Shown piece after piece: positions 43,267 through 54,243 of a stretch of DNA of 64,000 bases. How positions within the stretch are numbered: the first letter of the stretch is position 1; every line of letters begins with the position of its first letter. The translations under genes were made by a program, and so were the position numbers. Below the pieces are notes generated by a model. The model was given only the letters and a program-made list of their open reading frames with translations, did not search any database and was not told the origin of the DNA. Where the stretch lies: contig JACPPI010000011.1 of assembly GCA_016190985.1 (NCBI GenBank), positions 1-64,000 on the forward strand, read 5' to 3'. The stretch is from Opitutia bacterium. Its GTDB lineage: Bacteria > Verrucomicrobiota > Verrucomicrobiia > Opitutales > Opitutaceae.

Positions 43267-43297
43267 AAAACAAAAGGCCGGGCGAGCGCCCGGCCTT
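43267..43297 (-). terminator. Terminator of the act/cytochrome operon
   Basis: On the minus strand AAGGCCGGGCG pairs with CGCCCGGCCTT, followed by TTGTTTTGGG. It lies 37 bp after the stop of the last cytochrome gene. Confidence 0.8.
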
Positions 43298-43333: not shown

Positions 43334-43984
43334 TCAGTTGCCGATCTTCAGCAGCTCGGCGGCGGTCCAGAAGGTGGCGCGGCTGGCGGTCTCGGCGCGG
43401 ACCTTGGCGACGGCCTCGGGCGACACCTCGGGCGCGGCGTTGCCCCAGGAGGCGCGCACGTAGGACAGCACGTTGGCGATCTGCTCGTCCTTCAGCGCGG
43501 CGCCGAGCGGGGCCATGACGTTGTTGAACTCCACGCCCTTGACCGTGAGCGGGCCGTTGAGGCCGTGCAGCACGATGCGGATGGCGCGCGCCTCGCTGCC
43601 AGTGGCCCACTCGGAACCGGCCAGCGGCGGATACTGGCCGGGGACACCCAGGCCGTTGGCCTGGTGGCAGGCGATGCAGGTGGTGTCGAAGACCTTCTTG
43701 CCCATCTGCGCCCGGGTCAGCGCGACGACCTTGACGGCGCCGGGCTTCTCGCGGTTGGCGTGCTCGCTGTAGACCAGCGGGTCGAAACGCAGCGAATAGT
43801 GCGCGAGGTAGATCGAGCCGAAGAAAATGGCCGAGCACATGAGGCCGAGCAGCACGAGCGGAAGCTTGGAATAGCCGCCGGCCTTCTCGGGCTTGGCCGC
43901 CACCAGCCGGGCATGCACCTGCTGGATGCTGTCGTCGCTGGCGGCGGACTGCTCGACGCGGAGATGGGGTTCGTTCGCGCTCAT
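43334..43984 (-). CDS. Membrane-anchored monohaem cytochrome c
   Basis: A 216-aa protein with a cytoplasmic N-terminus of about 40 residues, one transmembrane helix (about 41-62, LPLVLLGLMCSAIFFGSIYLA) and a periplasmic cytochrome c domain. The haem site is CIACH (103-107) and the likely axial Met is in VEFNNVMAPLGAAL. It has an unusually long N-terminal tail and a 40-residue C-terminal tail (AETASRATFWTAAELLKIGN). It is last gene of the act/ccoNO operon, 1 bp after ccoO, so it is probably the electron acceptor or wire to an oxidase encoded elsewhere. Confidence 0.88.
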   Translation of the reverse strand: MSANEPHLRVEQSAASDDSIQQVHARLVAAKPEKAGGYSKLPLVLLGLMCSAIFFGSIYLAHYSLRFDPLVYSEHANREKPGAVKVVALTRAQMGKKVFDTTCIACHQANGLGVPGQYPPLAGSEWATGSEARAIRIVLHGLNGPLTVKGVEFNNVMAPLGAALKDEQIANVLSYVRASWGNAAPEVSPEAVAKVRAETASRATFWTAAELLKIGN

Positions 43985-43985
43985 C

Positions 43986-44657
43986 TTAGTGGCCTGCCTC
44001 CTTGTGGGGCGCGGGCGCGTTGCGGCTGCGCTCGGTGGGATAGTCGTAGGAGTCCTTCAGGCTTTGCAGATAGGCGGCCAGCGCGACGGCCCGCGCCGTC
44101 GGCACGACCTCCAGGCCGGGACCGGGCGCGAACTTGGAGGGCAACGTGAGGGCGTGGGCCGAAGGCTGGCGGCCGGCGACCGGATGCACGTCGAAGAGGA
44201 ACGGATGCGCCGGCATGTTGGTGCCCTTGGCGACCGACTGCGGGGCGTAGAGGAGCTTGTAGAACCACTCGGCGTATTCCGCCGGCTTGGCCTCGCCGAG
44301 GCGCGCGCCGACGTTGCGCAGGTCGGGGCCGAGGCGGTTCTGACCGATGAGCACGGTCTGGTCGCGGATGTAGTCGCGGGCATAGCTGCCGCGCTCGCCC
44401 CACTTGCGGGCGAGGTCGGAGCCGAAGCCCTCGTGGCGGACCTGCTGCGTGTGGCAGGTGACACAGCCGAGGTCCTGATAAACGAGGCGGCCCTGGTCGG
44501 CCAGGCCGGAGAGCGGCTGCGGATAGAGCGTCTCATCCGCCGGATCCTTGAACTGGCCGAGCCCGCCGATCTGCCGGTGCGCGGTCAGGAGGAGGCCGGC
44601 CCAGGAAAGCGCGAGCGTGGCGAAGACGCCGAGGAAGAGGGTCAGGCCGTTTTTCAT
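43986..44657 (-). CDS. ccoO: CcoO-type cytochrome c subunit
   Basis: A 223-aa cytochrome of the cbb3-oxidase CcoO family. N-terminal helix (about 5-24), then QGRLVYQDLGCVTCHTQQVR with haem site CVTCH (65-69), the family segment ARKWGERGSYARDYIRDQ, LIGQNRLGPDLRNVG, and the axial-Met motif TNMPAHPFLF. Haem attachment is intact, unlike the catalytic residues of the CcoN-like partner. Its start overlaps the end of that gene by 4 bp, so the two are co-translated and probably form a complex. Confidence 0.9.
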   Translation of the reverse strand: MKNGLTLFLGVFATLALSWAGLLLTAHRQIGGLGQFKDPADETLYPQPLSGLADQGRLVYQDLGCVTCHTQQVRHEGFGSDLARKWGERGSYARDYIRDQTVLIGQNRLGPDLRNVGARLGEAKPAEYAEWFYKLLYAPQSVAKGTNMPAHPFLFDVHPVAGRQPSAHALTLPSKFAPGPGLEVVPTARAVALAAYLQSLKDSYDYPTERSRNAPAPHKEAGH

Positions 44658-46126
44658 GGGCCGACGCCTTTCAGGCTATGGCCCGCAGGTGCGTGGGCCT
44701 CGGTTGAGAGATCAGGTGGAACACGGAAAACGGCGGCGGCGGTGCCCTGCGAATTGATCGGGCAGGCGATCCAGATGAAGTTGATCAAAAACGCCACGTG
44801 GCCGACCAGCAGCAGGGCCAGCACGGCGCTGCGCAGCGCGAACCAGGGCGCCATCGCCTTGGTGATGGCGGCAAACGGCACGGCGGCGTCATTGAGCATG
44901 TGCCCCTGCGACCAGCCGGCGTAGGTCAGGCCCGCGACCATGAGCAGCACGCCCAGCGCGGTGGCGCCGAAGTGCGCCTTCACGAGCGCGGGCGAGCGCC
45001 ACTCCTTGCCGGTCAGGCGCGGCAGGAGGAAATAGGCGGCGCCGAACATCGCCGTCGAGAAACAGGCGTAGAAGGTCAGCCAGTCCCGCAGCCCGTCGAG
45101 CATGGTGAACTGCGCGGTCACGGCGAAACCGCGCATCGAAAGCGCGAGGTTCATGGCCGCGGCGAGCACAAAGCTCGTGATGCTGATGATGATGAAACGG
45201 AGCGTCAGGCTGTTCCGGGCGGCGGCGTGGCGGCCGGACAGCGTGCCGAAGAGGTTGAGCGCCACGATGACGACGCCGACCACGACGAGCATGTTGGCCA
45301 CGATGCCCAGGGTCGGGATCCACACCGGCACCGGCGCGCCGATCAGGCGGCTGCCGCCGGCGAAAGCCGACGTGATCGCCAGCCACCAGAAGGCCAGCGG
45401 CGCGAGGTAGTAGTTGGCGACCGGCTTGCCGAGGATCTTGGGCAGGAAGTAATACGCGGCGGCGAGCGCGACCGGCACGAACCAGAGGTTGTAGAGGCCG
45501 TGGGCATACCAGGCGTTGACGACGGGCTGGAGCACGCCGCGCACGGGCGCCTTGAAGAGCATGACCTGCGCGAGGGCGTAGAGCCACGGGAACCAGAAGG
45601 CCGCGCCGAAGAGATACCATTGCGAGGCGTAGACATTCTCGGTGTTGCGGATGCTGAAGGTGGTGACGGCCCAGACGCCGATCAGGGCATAGGCCGTGAG
45701 GAGGAGCAGGCTCACGTAGCGCGGCATCTCCAGCAGTTCGAAGGAGGTCGAATAGCCGCCCAGAATGCCGAGGACGCCGAGAGCGACACCGGTATTCCAG
45801 AACTTGGCGGCAACGAAGAGCCAGCCGCCGTGGCGCAGCGTGGTCGCGGAGAGCCGGGCCATGAGCCAGAGGCCGAACGCAAAGGCGGCATTCATGCCCC
45901 AGCCGTAGACGAGGGCGTTCTGCGCGGCGGGGGCGAGGCGGCCGTGGGTCGTCCACTCGCAGGCGCTCAGGAACCCGGGTTGGTGCAACTGCATCGCGGC
46001 GGCCAGCTGCATGACACCGCCGACCAGGAGCCAGCCCAGCGCGTAACCGAAGAAGACGAGCACGGGCCACCTGGCCGAGGCGTCGATCTCGATTTGCTCC
46101 GAGCGGTTGGGGGCGGTTGAATTCAT
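44654..46126 (-). CDS. CcoN-like haem-copper oxidase subunit I lacking metal ligands
   Basis: A 490-aa protein with about 12 transmembrane helices and clear sequence similarity to cbb3 CcoN (GRLAPAAQNALVYGWGMNA, NAWYAHGLYNLWFVPVALAAAYYFLPK, VWIPTLGIV, LFGTLSGRH, GAAYFLLPRL). The six histidines that bind haem b, haem b3 and CuB are mostly gone. Helix 2 GRLRPLH is GRLAPAA (His to A68). Only the first CuB His (H209) remains. The HH pair is S259-R260, and GHVH is L346-R347-D348-W349. The protein cannot be a standard oxidase. It is co-translated with ccoO and sits in the act operon. A structural or electron-transfer role with ACIII is inferred. Confidence 0.85.
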   Translation of the reverse strand: MNSTAPNRSEQIEIDASARWPVLVFFGYALGWLLVGGVMQLAAAMQLHQPGFLSACEWTTHGRLAPAAQNALVYGWGMNAAFAFGLWLMARLSATTLRHGGWLFVAAKFWNTGVALGVLGILGGYSTSFELLEMPRYVSLLLLTAYALIGVWAVTTFSIRNTENVYASQWYLFGAAFWFPWLYALAQVMLFKAPVRGVLQPVVNAWYAHGLYNLWFVPVALAAAYYFLPKILGKPVANYYLAPLAFWWLAITSAFAGGSRLIGAPVPVWIPTLGIVANMLVVVGVVIVALNLFGTLSGRHAAARNSLTLRFIIISITSFVLAAAMNLALSMRGFAVTAQFTMLDGLRDWLTFYACFSTAMFGAAYFLLPRLTGKEWRSPALVKAHFGATALGVLLMVAGLTYAGWSQGHMLNDAAVPFAAITKAMAPWFALRSAVLALLLVGHVAFLINFIWIACPINSQGTAAAVFRVPPDLSTEAHAPAGHSLKGVGP

Positions 46127-46135
46127 CGGCAGGTC

Positions 46136-46441
46136 TTACTTCTTGGAATGGTCGCGGACGGTGAGTTCGATGGCGCGCCCGATGGGGAGGCGGACGACAC
46201 CCGCCTTCTGATCAACCCAGGCGTAACCGGTCGCGGCGGCGCGGTCGGCGGCGAGCTTCTCGACGAGCAGGGCCTTGCGGTCGGCGGGGGTGCGGACGCC
46301 CTCGACTTTTTCCACGGTGTAGGCGCGGGGCACGTAGACCTTCCAGGCCAGCCAGCCGAAGACGGTGAAGCAGAGCAGCACGAGCACCGTGGTGAAGACC
46401 GGCGTGCGGCGCGGGAAGGATAAATTGGCGGAATCGCTCAT
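46136..46441 (-). CDS. Small single-pass membrane protein in the act operon
   Basis: A 101-aa protein with a short N-terminus, one transmembrane helix (about 16-36, FTTVLVLLCFTVFGWLAWKVYV) and an extracytoplasmic domain ending in GYAWVDQKAGVVRLPIGRAIELTVRDHSKK. The last segment, with AGVVRLPIGRAIELTV, looks conserved. No cofactor site is present. Its position, 3 bp after actF and 9 bp before the CcoN-like gene, suggests it is an accessory subunit of the ACIII/CcoNO assembly. I do not know its family. Confidence 0.75.
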   Translation of the reverse strand: MSDSANLSFPRRTPVFTTVLVLLCFTVFGWLAWKVYVPRAYTVEKVEGVRTPADRKALLVEKLAADRAAATGYAWVDQKAGVVRLPIGRAIELTVRDHSKK

Positions 46442-46444
46442 GGC

Positions 46445-47047
46445 TCAGTGGGCGGCGGGCACGGCGCCGGGTTCGGGGGCGGCGGCGTCGTGGTGGGTGA
46501 GCGCCTCGACGATGCGCGGGTCGCGGATCGGGATCAGCTTGGCCGTGGGAAAACTCCGGAGATACGACCAGGCGCAGATGCCGCCGACGCCGATGACGGA
46601 GGTGGCGACCCAGAGCAGGTTGAGTGAGAGGAAGGGCTGGGGATCATCATGGCCGTCGCGGAGCGCGGGCAGCACGTTGTAGCAGAGGTCCACCAGGATG
46701 ATGACGGCGATCCAGAGGCTGATCCGGAGGGCGGGCCTGATCTCGGCCTTGTTGCGATAGCGCAGCCAGGCGAAGAACGGCAGGAAGAAGTGGCCGAAAA
46801 GCAGGAGCATCCCGACCCAGAGCCAGTCGCCGTGCTCGCGGATGTTATACCAGAAGGTCTCCTCGGGCACGTTGGCGTTCCAGATCAGGAAATACTGGGA
46901 GAAGGTGACATAGGCCCAGAAGACCACGAAGGCGAAGGCCAGGGCCGTGAGGCAGTGCAGCTGGTTGGTGTTGAAGATGCCCTTGTAGTCGCCGCGGGCG
47001 AGCAGCCACCAGGTGATGACGACGCCGATGGCCATGGCGGCGCGCAT
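46445..47047 (-). CDS. actF: ActF C-terminal part (frame-disrupted)
   Basis: 200 aa starting at the ATG at 47047 (MRAAMAIGVVITWWLLARGDYKG). It has the C-terminal half of ActF, a membrane subunit of alternative complex III: ALAFAFVVFWAYVTFSQYFLIWNANVPEETFWYN, GHFFLPFFAWLRYRNKAEI and three or four helices. It lacks the N-terminal half, which is in a different frame just upstream (46845-47564 entry). Whether it is translated is uncertain: no ribosome-binding site is obvious. See the finding on the frame change. Confidence 0.7.
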   Translation of the reverse strand: MRAAMAIGVVITWWLLARGDYKGIFNTNQLHCLTALAFAFVVFWAYVTFSQYFLIWNANVPEETFWYNIREHGDWLWVGMLLLFGHFFLPFFAWLRYRNKAEIRPALRISLWIAVIILVDLCYNVLPALRDGHDDPQPFLSLNLLWVATSVIGVGGICAWSYLRSFPTAKLIPIRDPRIVEALTHHDAAAPEPGAVPAAH

Positions 47048-47564
47048 GGTCGTTGTCCTGCGCGAAGGAGGCCTGGCGGAGGCGGGCGGAGAGCCAGATC
47101 CAGCCGGCGAAGAACGCCACCGTCATGCCGGTGAACATGTTCACGTTGAGGAAGCTCGCCTTCTTCTGGTAGAGGATGTCGGTGCCGACGGTGCCACCGC
47201 CGCCGTGCAGCGCGTGACCGAGGTCCATCCAGGGCCACACGAAGCCGGGCTTCACCCACGCCGAGATAAGCAGCGGGAGGAAGAGGACAAACAGCCACTT
47301 GAAGGCCGAGAGGCCGTGCTCGAACTGGCGGCGGATGACGGTGGACCAGCCGGCGTCGAAGATGTGGTGGATCATCACCAGCATGAGCATGCCGATGGCG
47401 ACGGCCGTCCAGTAGGTGACGCCGACGAGATAGGACAGGGCGACGCCGTGCGGCTCGGCGACGAAGAGGCCGAGGGCGGTGACCGCGAGGCCGGCGAGGC
47501 CGGCCATGAGGAACTTGTTCGCCAAGGCGGCGGTGGAAGCAGGACTGGAAGCGGGAGCGCTCAT
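46845..47564 (-). CDS. actF: ActF N-terminal part (frame-disrupted)
   Basis: The coding part runs from the ATG at 47564 (MSAPASSPASTAALANKF) to about 47049 (RLRQASFAQDND) and has three or four helices matching the N-terminal half of ActF, including LVGVTYWTAVAIGMLMLVMIHHIFDAGWSTVIRRQFEH. After that the frame continues to 46845 with Arg/His-rich shadow sequence (HARRHGHRRRHH). The true downstream half is in the -1/+2 frame. From memory, ActF normally continues with a DW-x-M-S-L ... WFST-x-YG helix that is absent in either frame, so a segment is probably missing too. Confidence 0.7.
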   Translation of the reverse strand: MSAPASSPASTAALANKFLMAGLAGLAVTALGLFVAEPHGVALSYLVGVTYWTAVAIGMLMLVMIHHIFDAGWSTVIRRQFEHGLSAFKWLFVLFLPLLISAWVKPGFVWPWMDLGHALHGGGGTVGTDILYQKKASFLNVNMFTGMTVAFFAGWIWLSARLRQASFAQDNDHARRHGHRRRHHLVAARPRRLQGHLQHQPAALPHGPGLRLRGLLGLCHLLPVFPDLERQRARGDLLV

Positions 47565-47565
47565 T

Positions 47566-48207
47566 TTATTTCAGTCCTCCGCGCAGTTCGGCCGGGACAT
47601 CGTCGAGCTTGCCATGGGCGGCGCGCTGGAGGGCGCGCACGTAGGCGACCACGGCCCAGCGGTCGTCGGGCGAGAGCTTGTCCGCGTAGGACATCATCGT
47701 GTTCTTGCCGTGGGTGATGGTGTGGAAGATCTCGCCCTCGGCCATGCCGCGCAGGCGGTCGTCGTGGTAGGTCGGCGTGGTGAGCATGCCGTAGGACTTG
47801 GTGATGCCGTTGCCGTCGCCGAGCGCGCCGTGGCAGGGCGCGCAGTAGATCTGGTAGCGGTCCTGGCCGCGGCGCACAAAAACCTCGGTGACCTCGACGC
47901 CGGCCGGAAACCCGCGGCCGAAGCCGTCATCGGCCAGCTTGCCCTCGTAGCGGAAATCGTCGGCTCGGAGGAAGGCGGGGTCGGCCTTCGTGCCGTCGCG
48001 GCCGTAAGGCACGGCGCCGGCGGGCAGCGGCCGGTCGGCGCGGCCGTCGGCGAAGAACTTGGACCCGGCCTGCGGCTTGTATTTGGCCTGGCGGTCCATG
48101 TCGGGGAACACCTCGATCGGCGGCCGCGGCGAGCGCAGGCCGCGCAGGCCCATGACGGAGACGAGCAGCACGACCGTGAAGGCGAGGGTGTAGTAGGCGA
48201 AACGCAT
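47566..48207 (-). CDS. actE: ActE, monohaem cytochrome c of alternative complex III
   Basis: A 213-aa cytochrome with an N-terminal anchor or signal (about 3-20) and a C-terminal cytochrome c domain: haem site CAPCH (122-126), GDGNGITKSYGM and axial Met in TMMSYADKLSPDDRW. The N-terminal domain has the ActE-type motifs (PPIEVFPDMDRQAKYKPQAGS). It receives electrons from ActB/ActA. It ends 1 bp before the actF start. Confidence 0.92.
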   Translation of the reverse strand: MRFAYYTLAFTVVLLVSVMGLRGLRSPRPPIEVFPDMDRQAKYKPQAGSKFFADGRADRPLPAGAVPYGRDGTKADPAFLRADDFRYEGKLADDGFGRGFPAGVEVTEVFVRRGQDRYQIYCAPCHGALGDGNGITKSYGMLTTPTYHDDRLRGMAEGEIFHTITHGKNTMMSYADKLSPDDRWAVVAYVRALQRAAHGKLDDVPAELRGGLK

Positions 48208-48208
48208 G

Positions 48209-48739
48209 TCAGGCCTCCAGCTCCGTGATGTCCTTGCCGCCGATCTTCGCGAGCAGGTCGCGGGTGGCGGTGGCGTGGTATTTCGGGTCGTTGGCCTCGA
48301 TCACGATGTAGAGGCGGTCGTCGAGCGCGCGGACGAACTGCGGGGCCTTCATCACCGGGTGATAGTGCATCGGGAGCCTGTTGAGCAGGAACATGCCGCC
48401 GATGGTGGCGAAAGCGGTGAAGAGGATCGTCAGCTCGTAAGAAACCGGGAAGGCGAACATGGGGCTGAACATGGGCTTGCCGCCGACCACGAGCGGATAC
48501 TCAACCCAGCCGAGCCAGGCGATGAAGCTCATGCCGGTGACGAAACCGGTGATGCCGCCGGCGAGGGAGAAGCGCGGCACCTTGGAGCGGCGCACGCCCA
48601 TGGCGGCGTCGAGGCCGTGGACCGGGAACGGCGTGAGCGCGTCCCACTGCGAGTAGCCGGCGTCGCGGACCTTTTCGCAGGCATGGTAAAGGTCCGGCGT
48701 GGTGTCGAAGGCGGCGATGAGCCCGTAGGTCTGGTTCAT
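48209..48739 (-). CDS. actD: ActD (DUF3341) membrane subunit of alternative complex III
   Basis: A 176-aa protein from the ATG at 48739 (MNQTYGLIAAFDTTPDLYHACEKVRDAGY). An N-terminal soluble ferredoxin-like alpha/beta domain (about 1-60) is followed by two transmembrane helices (about 68-90 and 105-127) and a C-terminal half (HYHPVMKAPQFVRALDDRLYIVIEANDPKYHATATRDLLAKI), the pattern of DUF3341. It ends 1 bp before the actE start and begins 13 bp after the end of actC. Confidence 0.93.
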   Translation of the reverse strand: MNQTYGLIAAFDTTPDLYHACEKVRDAGYSQWDALTPFPVHGLDAAMGVRRSKVPRFSLAGGITGFVTGMSFIAWLGWVEYPLVVGGKPMFSPMFAFPVSYELTILFTAFATIGGMFLLNRLPMHYHPVMKAPQFVRALDDRLYIVIEANDPKYHATATRDLLAKIGGKDITELEA

Positions 48740-48752
48740 GGCGGCGGCTCCT

Positions 48753-50209
<1,457 letters not shown>

Positions 50210-50210
<1 letters not shown>

Positions 50211-53200
50211 CAGCCGTGTCCTCCCTTCTTGGCTTCGTGCTGGTCAGCGCCGTGGCCGGCGCCGTGCGCCGGGTGGTTTTTTTGGTTATACTCGACGCGG
50301 CTGAACGGGAGGGCGGCGTAGTCGGGCATGGCGGGGTTCGGGTTGCGCAGCTTGCCGAGGTAGGTCGTGCGCGGGCGGATGTTGAGGTAGCCGAGGACGG
50401 CGTAGTCGCGGTCCTGCTGCTTCGCGCGGGAGACGGCGCTGCGCTCGTCCTTGATATTGCCGAAGACAATGGCCTCGACCGGGCACACCTGCTGGCAGGC
50501 GGTCTTGATCGTGCCGTCGGGGATGACGACATCGCCGCCGGCGCCGGCCGAGCGCTTCTGCGCGATCTTGGCCTGCTGCACGCGCTGGACGCAGTAGGTG
50601 CACTTCTCCATGACGCCGCGCATGCGCACGGTCACATCGGGGTTCTTCACCATCTTGACCAGCTCGGGCATGTCGCCCTGCTGGCCGAGCGGGCCCAGGT
50701 AGAGGGCGTCGAGCGAGCGCTTGTTGAAGTCGAAGAAATTGAACCGGCGCACCTTGTAGGGGCAGTTGTTCGCGCAGTAGCGCGTGCCGATGCAGCGGTT
50801 GTAGGCCATGACGTTGACGCCCTCGTCGTCGTGGACCGTGGCGTTGACCGGGCACACGGTCTCGCAGGGCGCGAGTTCGCAGTGCTGGCAGGTCATGGGC
50901 TGCATCGAAACCTGGGGGTCTTCCGGCAGTATCTTGTTGCCCTCGGCGCCGAAGGCCGCGGCGTCGGCGCGGCCGTCCGAGTAGTAGCGGTCGAGGCGGA
51001 TCCAGTGCATCTCGCGGCCGCGCATCACCTGCTCCTTGCCGACGATCGGGATGTTGTTCTCGGCCTGGCAGGCCACCACGCAGGCGTTGCAGCCGATGCA
51101 GGTGTTGAGGTCGATCGACATGCCCCACTGGTGGATGCCGTCGAAATTCGGGGTTTCGTAGAGCGAGTTGCCGCGCGGGGTCGTGGTCGCGATGAAAGCC
51201 GGATCCTTGCCGGCGTCCTTGCCCAGCACAGGCGGTGTGTGCGACTCCATGCCGATGCCGGCAACGAACTTCGGGTTCTCCTTAAACTCATCGACATTGG
51301 CCTCGCGCACGATGTCGCGGCCCTCCATCGACCAGTGCTCCTGGGTGTTGGCGAGCTGGCGTCGCTCGCCGGTGGGAGTCATTTTCGCGCCGGTGGCGAA
51401 GGCCAGGCCGTCGCTCGCGCGCAGCGGATAGGCGCTGAAGCCTGCGCCGGTGCCGATGTGGCCCGACTGCGTGCGGCCGTAGCCAAGCGGGAGGACGACG
51501 GTGTAGTTCGACAGGCCGGGTTGGATGTGGACCGGACCGGAAATCTTGCGGCCGTTGAGCGTGACCTCGAAGACCCGGGCGTTCTCGCGGCCCTGGTAGA
51601 AATCGGCCTCCTCCTTGCGCGCGACCTGCAGCAGGCTGCCGGCGGGCACGATGCCCAACTCGGCGGCGAGCTTCGGGCTGACGAGGATGGCGTTGTCCCA
51701 CGAGATCTTCGTCATCGGGTCCGGGCATTCCTGCAGCCAGCCGTTGTTGGCGAAACGGCCGTCGTCCATCTTGTGGTCGGTGGTGAAGCGGACCTCGAGG
51801 TTGTTCAGCGACAGCGCCGTGAAGGCGGGCAGCCGGGCGAAGGCGGCGCCGGAACGCTGCACGTCAAAGGCGACCGCCGCCGGCTTGTAGGCGGAGCTCT
51901 CGAGCAGGCCGTCGTGCAGGAATTTCTCGAACGCCTTTTTCGCGTCGCCGCCGGTGAGCCTGCCGATCGTGATGAAAACCTGCTCGTAGGCCCCGGTCTG
52001 CTCCTCGCCGGCGAGGCGGGCGAGCAGCTCGGCCTCCATCAGGCCGTTGAAGAGCGGCATGATCATCGGCTGCACCGGCACGATCGTGCCGTCGGCCGTG
52101 CGGGCGTCGCCCCATGACTCGAGATAATGCGTCGCGGCCAGATGCGTGCCCGCGAGGGCCGAGGTCTCGTCCCGGTAGTAGCCGTAGCGGATGACTTCCG
52201 GCACGGACTTCAGCAGCGCGCCGAAATCAAGGTCGGCGGGCGCGTTGTAGGCCGGGTTGCCGTTGAGGACGAGGAGGGTCTTGACCGCGCCGGCCTTGAT
52301 GGCGGTGGCGAGGGCCGTGATGGTCGAGGCGGCGGGCGCGGCCACCTCGACGAAATCCACGGTCTTGCCCAAATTGCCGAGCCTGGCGTTCATCGCGTAG
52401 GCGAGGCAATGGACGGCGGCGGGCTGGTGGGCGCCGGCGACGACGAGCGATTCGCCGCGATGTTCCAGCAAATCCTTGGCGCACTGCTCGACCCAGGCGG
52501 CGTTGACCTCGAGGCCCTTGGCCAATGATTCAAAATCGTTTGTCCCCAGCACGTGCCCGCCGATCGCTGCGGTGAGCGCGAGCATGTGGCTGCTCGCGAG
52601 CCGCAGGCGGTGGTCCGCCATGCTGCCGGTGAGCGAGAAGCCGCTCTCGGCCACGTAGAGGCGGTTCATCGGGTCGGTCGGCCTGGCGACGCGGCGGCCC
52701 TTGGCGAACTCGCGGGCGTAGTAGAGCGAACCGGACTCGGCGTGGAAGAAATCGGCGTCGAGCGAGAGGATGCGCCTGGCCTGCGCGAAGCGGTAGACGG
52801 GCTTCACGTTTTTGCCGAAGGCGGCCTGCGCCGCCGCCAATGGCGGCTCGTCCTGCACGGGCTCGTATTCGGCCCAGATGGCCTTGGGGAACCTGGCCTT
52901 CAGTTTGGCGACGAGGCGCGCGCGGGTCGGCGAGGCGGATTCGTCGGCGAGGAAGGCCAGGCCCTCGCCGCTGCCGGCGTAGGTCTTGCTGATGCGGGCG
53001 AGCAGGTCGTTGACCTGGGCGGTGGAAAGGGTGTCGCCGTCCTTTTTGGTGTGCGCCGTGGCGCGCTCGGGGTCGTAGAGGTCGAGGACCGAGGCCTGCG
53101 CGAGGAGCGAGCTGGCGCCGCCGTGCGGGAGGTAACTCGGGTTGCCTTCCAGCTTGGTCGGGCGTCCTTGGTGGGTCTCGGCGAGGAGCGGGATGGCCGA

Positions 53201-53590
53201 CTTGCGCAGCGGCATGGCCGTGGCGAAATAAAGCGGGAGGCCGGGGACGGTGTATTCGACGGACTTGCCGTAGGGCAGGATGTGGGCCTCGGGGCGGCGG
53301 CAGCCGGCGAGCCCCATGCCGCCGAGCGCGAACGAGGCCGCCATCAGCTTCATGAACTGGCGGCGGTCCACGCCGTCCATTGACGACGCGCCCTCGGGGA
53401 ACTCGCGGGCGAGGTGCTCGCGGAAGCCGGGCGTGTCGGCCAGCTCGTCGAGGCTGCGCCAGTATTTCGGGCCGGTTTTTGTAGGCACAGTAGATTGAGT
53501 GTCACCCACAGTGGACGCAGGCATGGCATCCAGCGGAAAACCGGCGGGGGCGCGGGAAGCGGGAGCGGAATGATCAAATTTGCGTTTCAT
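50210..53590 (-). CDS. actB: ActB, fused molybdopterin-like and iron-sulphur subunit of alternative complex III
   Basis: An 1126-aa exported subunit. The signal is twin-arginine ([17 protein letters not shown], residues 75-91) behind a long leader, with a Cys at 97 (LAGC). The N-terminal half is molybdopterin-oxidoreductase-like (ActB1), which in this family carries no Mo cofactor, and the C-terminal part (ActB2) has four Cys clusters: [12 protein letters not shown] (about 830), [14 protein letters not shown] (about 900), [12 protein letters not shown] (about 935) and CTYCVQR with CQQVCPVEA (about 995-1030). They carry electrons from ActC-bound quinol to ActA/E. Its start overlaps the actA stop by 1 bp. 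Confidence 0.95.
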
Positions 53591-54243
53591 CAGCGATGGC
53601 AGCCGGAGCAGCTGGTGGGCGGTTTGATCCGGGCGAGATCGACGAATTCCCTGGCCTTGGCCGCGCCCTCGGCGTCCACGATGCGTTTCGAGTCGAGGTT
53701 GAACACGTTCTCGGGGCGGCGGACGCGCCCGGCGGGGTCGCGGTGGCAGTCGAGGCACCAGCTCATGCTGTGGGGCTGGTCGTGGTAGACGGTGGCCATC
53801 TCGTTGACCTTGCCGTGGCACTCGACGCAACTGACGCCGCGGTTCACGTGGACCGAGTGGTTGAAGTAGACGTAGTCGGGGGTCTGGTGGACCTTGACCC
53901 ACGGCACCGGCTCGCCGGTTGCGTAGCTCTGGCGCACCACCTCGAGCAGCGGGCTCGCGGGCTTGATGATGCTGTGGCAGTTCATGCAGGTCTGCGCGGC
54001 GGGGACGCTCGATGTGCCGGACTTCTCCACCGCGGCGTGGCAATAGCGGCAGTCGAGGCCGAGCTGGCCGGCGTGCAGGCTGTGCTCAAACGGGACGGGC
54101 TGGACCGGCTGGTAGCCGACGCGGAGGTAGGCGGGCGTGGCGTAGTAGGTGATTCCGGCCGTCGCGACGCCGCCGAGCACGCCGAGAAAAATCACGATCT
54201 GCAGCGGCAGGGCGTTGGCGGATTTCGGGAAAATCTTCGACAT
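53590..54243 (-). CDS. actA: ActA, pentahaem cytochrome c of alternative complex III
   Basis: A 217-aa cytochrome with an N-terminal transmembrane helix (about 13-33) and five CxxCH sites: CRYCH (65), CMNCH (86), CVECH (139), CLDCH (163) and CSGCH near the C-terminus. This number is the canonical one for ActA. It is the first gene of the act operon apart from a possible small gene just upstream, and it ends at the actB start (1-bp overlap). It transfers electrons from ActB towards cytochrome c. Confidence 0.95.
   Translation of the reverse strand: MSKIFPKSANALPLQIVIFLGVLGGVATAGITYYATPAYLRVGYQPVQPVPFEHSLHAGQLGLDCRYCHAAVEKSGTSSVPAAQTCMNCHSIIKPASPLLEVVRQSYATGEPVPWVKVHQTPDYVYFNHSVHVNRGVSCVECHGKVNEMATVYHDQPHSMSWCLDCHRDPAGRVRRPENVFNLDSKRIVDAEGAAKAREFVDLARIKPPTSCSGCHR

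Follow-up and report, generated by a model that had tools for sequence, protein, structure and literature searches.

The ccoN-like gene at 44654..46126 (minus strand) of the window, the 64,000-nucleotide stretch of an Opitutia bacterium genome analysed here (GenBank assembly GCA_016190985.1, contig JACPPI010000011.1), encodes a protein with the COX1-family fold but without five of the six ligand histidines and the active-site Tyr. The site was lost repeatedly among its relatives, while the fold, the gene order, the haem site of the partner CcoO and the cytochrome c of the same cluster were kept under purifying selection. Taken as a whole, the gene is probably the ligand-less form of a cbb3-derived module that is linked to alternative complex III (ACIII) in the class Verrucomicrobiae, although we hold this reading with moderate confidence.

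The product consists of 490 amino acids (ATG at 46126, stop at 44654). It matches the Pfam COX1 family with 145 bits, and the solved structures closest to it in sequence are CcoN chains of cbb3 oxidases. The score against the NCBIfam ccoN model TIGR00780 was 114.9 bits, below the cut-off of 583; the ligand-intact family member of genome G070 likewise stays below it, with 253.7 bits. An AlphaFold2 model based on a 49-row alignment (pLDDT 90.2) has the 12-helix fold of subunit I, and Foldseek gave TM scores of 0.84-0.86 to solved CcoN chains. Using HMMER, residues 29-449 were aligned to Pseudomonas stutzeri CcoN (3mk7), whose aligned residues we take to be the ligands of haem b, haem b3 and CuB. 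A68 occupies the column of the helix-2 haem b His, S259-R260 the columns of the CuB His pair, and R347 and W349 those of the two histidines of GHVH. H209, at the CuB His column, is the sole ligand His of the six that is retained. An alignment with ligand-bearing relatives (44-48% identity) gave identical columns and placed S253 at the active-site Tyr column. The first-pass annotation had aligned the same residues to the ligands and counted five of six histidines as lost with H209 left; both alignments agree with it, and the loss of the Tyr is an addition to it. Six histidines in shifted positions would have spoken against that annotation, and no shifted ligands were seen in the 3mk7 alignment, in the alignment with relatives or among the residues newly fixed in the clade of the window. 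The latter (30 rows) are the start Met, W20, W102, R136, W248, R260, D348 and W349, with no His or Cys among them, and R347 is common to the rows ending in RRW. The protein would accordingly reduce no oxygen, and the form found in the clade of the window probably binds no haem; its core appears to be repacked with R260, R347-D348-W349 and W248.

All neighbouring genes considered here are on the minus strand. Upstream, actA (53590..54243, multihaem cytochrome c), actB (50210..53590, iron-sulfur protein, start approximate), actC (48753..50210, NrfD), actD (48209..48772, ActD PF11821) and actE (47566..48207, mono-haem cytochrome c) were identified with Pfam, and their multihaem, Fe-S, NrfD, ActD and mono-haem domains follow in this order. 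actF (46445..47564) was assigned by similarity to relatives. It is split over two frames, neither half has a Pfam match, and it lacks approximately 52 residues relative to that of L038; the gene is in one frame in the five relatives checked. The break is either a real deletion or an assembly fault. A 101-residue gene (46136..46441), conserved in the family, lies between actF and the ccoN-like gene, and its product has no match in Pfam or NCBIfam. The initial description placed the ccoN-like gene directly behind actA-F, and this small gene is an addition to it.

Downstream, the ccoO-like gene (43986..44657) overlaps the ccoN-like stop by 4 bases. The mono-haem cytochrome c subunit that it encodes contains both CVTCH and M148, as had been stated earlier for its haem site and Met ligand. 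A CcoO with CxxCH thus adjoins CcoN, as in a cbb3 complex; it matches Pfam FixO with 61.5 bits and scores below the TIGR00781 cut-off. CcoP carries two haem c motifs. The final gene of the cluster (43334..43984) instead encodes a mono-haem cytochrome c (CIACH) that has one CxxCH and falls below the TIGR00782 cut-off. A terminator-like hairpin is located 3' of this gene (43274..43297, minus strand), with 6 such hairpins found in the region against 2.5 expected.

The gene order actA-F, small gene, CcoN, CcoO and cytochrome c is that of the family. Matches were found in 82 of the 95 related genomes searched, genuine CcoN matches included. Among the best 80 of 373 relatives, an act gene is located upstream on the same strand at 79 loci, and the contig of the remaining one stops at the gene. 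CcoO is located downstream at 75 of these loci, the other five contigs ending no more than 2 bases from the stop of CcoN, and cytochrome c at 69, with ten of the rest ending within 700 bases of the stop. L104 has room downstream of CcoN, yet no recognised cytochrome c copy is present there. In a second sample, 60 further stretches were added to the best 80 loci. In four of them (L170-L173), no ACIII operon is recognisable beside CcoN; these were used, together with the CcoNO of the source genome (L002), as canonical CcoN references. Of the remaining 56, 54 have act genes upstream. The other two are L133, in which the contig stops at the gene, and L175, which is an intact copy separate from ACIII. 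The best cytochrome c match is upstream of CcoN in seven of the 56. The L175 copy is the second one of genome G033; it is ligand-intact and without ACIII, and an A-type coxA is located about 9 kb upstream on the same strand.

We scored the ligand state at columns 68, 209, 253, 259, 260, 347 and 349. In the best 80 loci, 37 read HHYHHHH and 43 differ, two of the latter being cut before the last columns. The locus of IMCC26134 (L070) is intact. Across all family rows, which include duplicate identifiers for one genome (L070/L164, L075/L165 and L023/L049), 48 of 139 are intact and 91 are ligand-lost. In no ligand-lost row is the Tyr present, and in none are the two CuB histidines both retained. 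The replacements differ by group: AHxSRRW around the window, and QQGRHQQ, AYGVQQQ, HSAQKFI, SESSHFV and others elsewhere. In L107, L116 and L118, both axial histidines of haem b are kept whereas the CuB pair and the Tyr are gone, and these copies perhaps represent an intermediate stage of the loss.

The number of losses was estimated from trees of a quick type with support by SH-aLRT only. In the ActC tree (113 rows: 75 lost and 38 intact), the state changes 14 times, with at least 8 changes forced by starred branches, and the window belongs to an all-lost set of 18 rows (starred support of 100). Trees of ActE, ActD, cytochrome c and CcoO (99-107 rows, six long rows dropped) gave 13, 12, 12 and 7 changes, respectively, although noisy short genes tend to inflate such counts. 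The CcoN tree calculated without the ligand columns has 5 changes, all forced, and unites 53 lost rows in one starred clade; the minimum over all trees is five. Parsimony is blind to gain versus loss, and we read the changes as losses because regain of seven specific residues is implausible. When the ActC tree is midpoint-rooted and strict irreversibility is imposed, 19 maximal all-lost clades result, many splits being weak, and 16 remain with seven long rows dropped. A single loss is incompatible with the starred branches of the ActC and CcoN trees, which leaves five or about a dozen.

The lower number would apply if an old inactive CcoN-CcoO lineage had spread by operon exchange, so that about five losses, rather than a dozen, took place. 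This is a serious possibility, but we lean against it. The five changes and the 53-row clade of the CcoN tree point to it, together with the seven changes of the CcoO tree and a mild rejection by CcoN of one ActC grouping (p-AU 0.023, the group having been picked after viewing the tree). On the other hand, ActC rejects the 53-row clade for the 41 shared rows (p-AU 7e-9), and the counts on the ActC tree, with its 8 forced changes, and on that of the short cytochrome c gene are higher; relaxed pockets could, moreover, attract each other in the CcoN tree. The conflict between CcoN and ActC reflects either such an attraction among lost copies or the exchange of CcoN-CcoO pairs.

The partner proteins retain their haem-binding motif. 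CxxCH is present in all 87 CcoO sequences from ligand-lost rows and in 84 of 85 cytochromes c, the exception being due to masked letters. The Met ligand of CcoO is found in 66 of the 87 rows, and the others have Cys (10), His (3), Arg (3), Lys (2), Ala (1) or a gap (2). Therefore, the CcoO haem is not unchanged everywhere. The ten CcoO-like proteins with Cys in place of Met are those of L119, L121, L124-L126, L129, L130, L135, L137 and L138, and the exchange suggests a changed haem potential. Five CcoO residues that are conserved with intact CcoN (Y67, T106, M107, T109 and S143) are kept in 6-17% of the rows with lost CcoN, which would be in line with a lost electron path into CcoN.

The ligand pattern is known for 77 genomes, 13 intact and 64 lost. 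Another strongly matching COX1-family protein is encoded in all 64 lost genomes; by match counts, more than one COX1-family match is also present in 12 of the 13 intact genomes. In G070 (99% complete), the single COX1-family match is the intact family member and cytochrome bd was not found. The ancestor of the family probably worked as an oxidase. G277, which is placed together with G070 in an 11-row group of the ActC tree, has a ligand-lost copy and one other COX1-family protein. The source genome encodes a caa3-type oxidase on contig C23, with a cytochrome c domain in subunit II, and a fused CcoNO above the ccoN cut-off on C33, as well as one further COX1-family match below cut-off. C33 carries a third haem-copper oxidase-like protein of 567 residues (L177 5401-3698), which does not reach the curated cut-off for any of the NCBIfam models matched; it adjoins a weak COX2-like gene and an SCO1-like gene. 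At 19 lost loci, all from the further stretches, an A-type coxA relative follows CcoN in the same orientation at a distance of 1.4-2.3 kb; none of the best 80 loci has one within the sequence examined. The downstream genes of L178 are COX1, COX3 and COX2 by Pfam, and a COX2 gene together with a COX1 match is likewise found downstream in one intact genome (L181).

Judging from these genes, the cbb3-derived module without an oxygen site would probably serve as a membrane scaffold and c-haem relay from ACIII to another oxidase, which we favour with some reserve. The ligand-less CcoN-like protein would dock CcoO and the cytochrome c on ACIII, and electrons could thereby run to a separate catalytic oxidase, from menaquinol through the ACIII haems, the CcoO haem and the cytochrome c. 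The final oxidase in the source genome would be the caa3-type enzyme on C23 or the fused CcoNO on C33. The scaffold role appears probable because the metal ligands were lost repeatedly and separately while the partner haem proteins were kept. A non-catalytic CcoN holding CcoO and a cytochrome c beside ACIII was already the hypothesis of the first-pass annotation; the clade-wide loss of the pocket, the purifying selection and the CxxCH counts (87/87 and 84/85) fit it and support it in part, and the function itself is a prediction. Several observations weigh against a relay. Intact genomes, too, commonly encode the oxidases that accompany a lost copy (12/13 have more than one COX1-family match), and one intact operon is also followed by COX2 and coxA. 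Within the sequence examined, coxA is found at 0/80 of the best loci. The CcoO sequences of 21 out of 87 lost rows do not retain the Met ligand, and actF is broken in the source assembly.

Alternatively, the ligand-less CcoN may only help to assemble or stabilise ACIII or a neighbouring oxidase, as a subunit without a part in electron transfer, and CcoO and the cytochrome c may persist for that structural reason or another. The preserved membrane fold with a lost redox site and the varying Met ligand (21/87) are consistent with this, and the accessible text of PMC10715153 proposes such a role for an inactive bc1 complex and for a COX1-like protein without ligands in Acetobacter. However, a purely structural role would not require CxxCH, and its retention in 87/87 CcoO and 84/85 cytochrome c sequences counts against this explanation, which we consider rather unlikely. 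A new function of the pocket, as an ion or proton path or a site for another cofactor or quinone, is quite improbable. R260, D348, W349 and W248 are fixed in the old site by the clade of the window, but quite different residues are found there in other lost lineages, and no new conserved His/Cys site is present among the 30 rows of this clade.

The ligand-lost genes are also constrained. By a simple counting method and with pairs that are not independent, dN/dS is 0.08-0.26 for ligand-lost CcoN (14 pairs) and 0.036-0.117 for intact CcoN in 7 of 8 pairs with a finite value, and ActC has a lower value than CcoN in 12/12 lost and 5/7 intact pairs having both. Of the CcoN positions, 59 are conserved regardless of the ligand state, with D15, S17, Q169-W170-Y171 and F179-P180-W181 among them, and another 52 show conservation in intact rows but have mostly disappeared from the lost ones. 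The replaced columns are identical throughout a genus-level clade, including the single-contig genomes G003 and G013. The initial judgement that the gene is not decayed is borne out by these clade-wide replacements and by dN/dS well below 1, and a dead gene, which would be suspected if this copy alone had lost the ligands, does not apply because the loss is common to the clade and recurrent, though relatives elsewhere keep the ligands. Despite the interrupted actF in the same operon and a CcoN dN/dS about twice that of intact relatives, decay or an assembly error in the source genome is hardly credible for the ccoN-like gene, being refuted by the clade-wide pattern.

In its fold and in the order of CcoN and mono-haem CcoO, the module resembles cbb3 oxidase (3mk7 and 6xkw), and the intact members keep the His and Tyr residues. 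In contrast, the protein here lacks the Tyr and five of the six His, the cytochrome c has one CxxCH, and the ccoN and ccoO model scores are far below the cut-off. ACIII genes also adjoin oxidase genes in Flavobacterium johnsoniae and Rhodothermus marinus, where, according to the accessible parts of the reports, ACIII is bound to aa3/caa3 (PMC8552683, PMC8361435), whereas a ligand-less cbb3-like module is located behind actF here. In F. johnsoniae, aa3 is fed by ACIII even without ActE, and the available part of PMC8552683 discusses a splitting of the electron paths. For verrucomicrobial methanotrophs as well as Opitutaceae, C-type oxidase genes next to ACIII have been noted (PMC8498564, with reference to Refojo et al. 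2010). These are very probably the same genes as the present family, although they are termed oxidase there and ligand loss is unmentioned in the accessible text. The Acetobacter COX1-like protein (PMC10715153) is similar in being subunit I-like, said to lack all metal-binding residues, and yet retained. It differs in that it is clustered with ctaB, with no ACIII, CcoO partner or recurrent loss described in the accessible portion, whereas the direct neighbours here are actF, the 101-residue gene, the ccoO-like gene and the cytochrome c gene. The C-type oxidase/ACIII adjacency and a ligand-less COX1-like protein are therefore already in print; a description of a ligand-less CcoN beside ACIII, or of its recurrent loss, was not found in the accessible text of the open-licence PMC literature.

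Five genomes of 2.2-2.5 Mb (G133, G144, G161, G230 and G338) have two to four pmoA-family matches each and appear to be Methylacidiphilum-like. Their family copies read SESSHFV (four) or ADAAHQT (one) and are ligand-less. COX1-family matches number 30 in six genomes, family copies included, and the other kinds are A-type-like, B-like and a kind with a GLGHHYFW motif, presumably NOR-like. None of the three other COX1-family proteins tested, all from kinds other than the A-type-like one, matched ccoN. In G161 (L141 5079-11646), nosZ and nosD are inserted between actF and the small gene, the same arrangement as the nos genes reported in the ACIII cluster of M. caldifontis IT6 (PMC11102522, accessible part). 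G101, of the same family as the pmoA-bearing genomes and with one pmoA match, has no match to the ACIII-linked family, which fits the statement, in the available text of a review, that not all three oxidase types are present in Methylacidithermus (PMC8498564). A cbb3 oxidase beside ACIII has been reported in methanotrophs (PMC8498564, PMC6688271 and PMC11102522, each as far as accessible). It is most likely the ligand-less family protein, because none of the three other proteins tested matches ccoN. Because the ACIII-linked protein is ligand-less in all five pmoA-bearing genomes, the reported "cbb3 oxidase" is probably not catalytic. In the accessible texts, a cbb3 oxidase co-located with ACIII is connected with high O2 affinity in a Methylacidiphilum genome paper (PMC6688271), and the cbb3 type is counted among three terminal oxidases (PMC10205796).

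We tentatively suggest that Verrucomicrobiae may possess an assembly of ACIII, an oxygen-inactive cbb3 module and an oxidase, derived from a repeatedly converted oxidase, and that part of the "cbb3 oxidase" annotation of the class, including the enzyme to which the high oxygen affinity of verrucomicrobial methanotrophs is ascribed, could be this inactive module. The finding bears on published physiology, as the cbb3 position is ligand-less in the five pmoA-bearing genomes. Oxygen use and affinity are predicted from annotated oxidase genes, and such counts would be affected by the ligand-less family. The family offers a handle on the electron hand-over of ACIII, and its recurrent losses, with the haem c partners kept, provide natural replicates of the conversion of an oxidase to another use.
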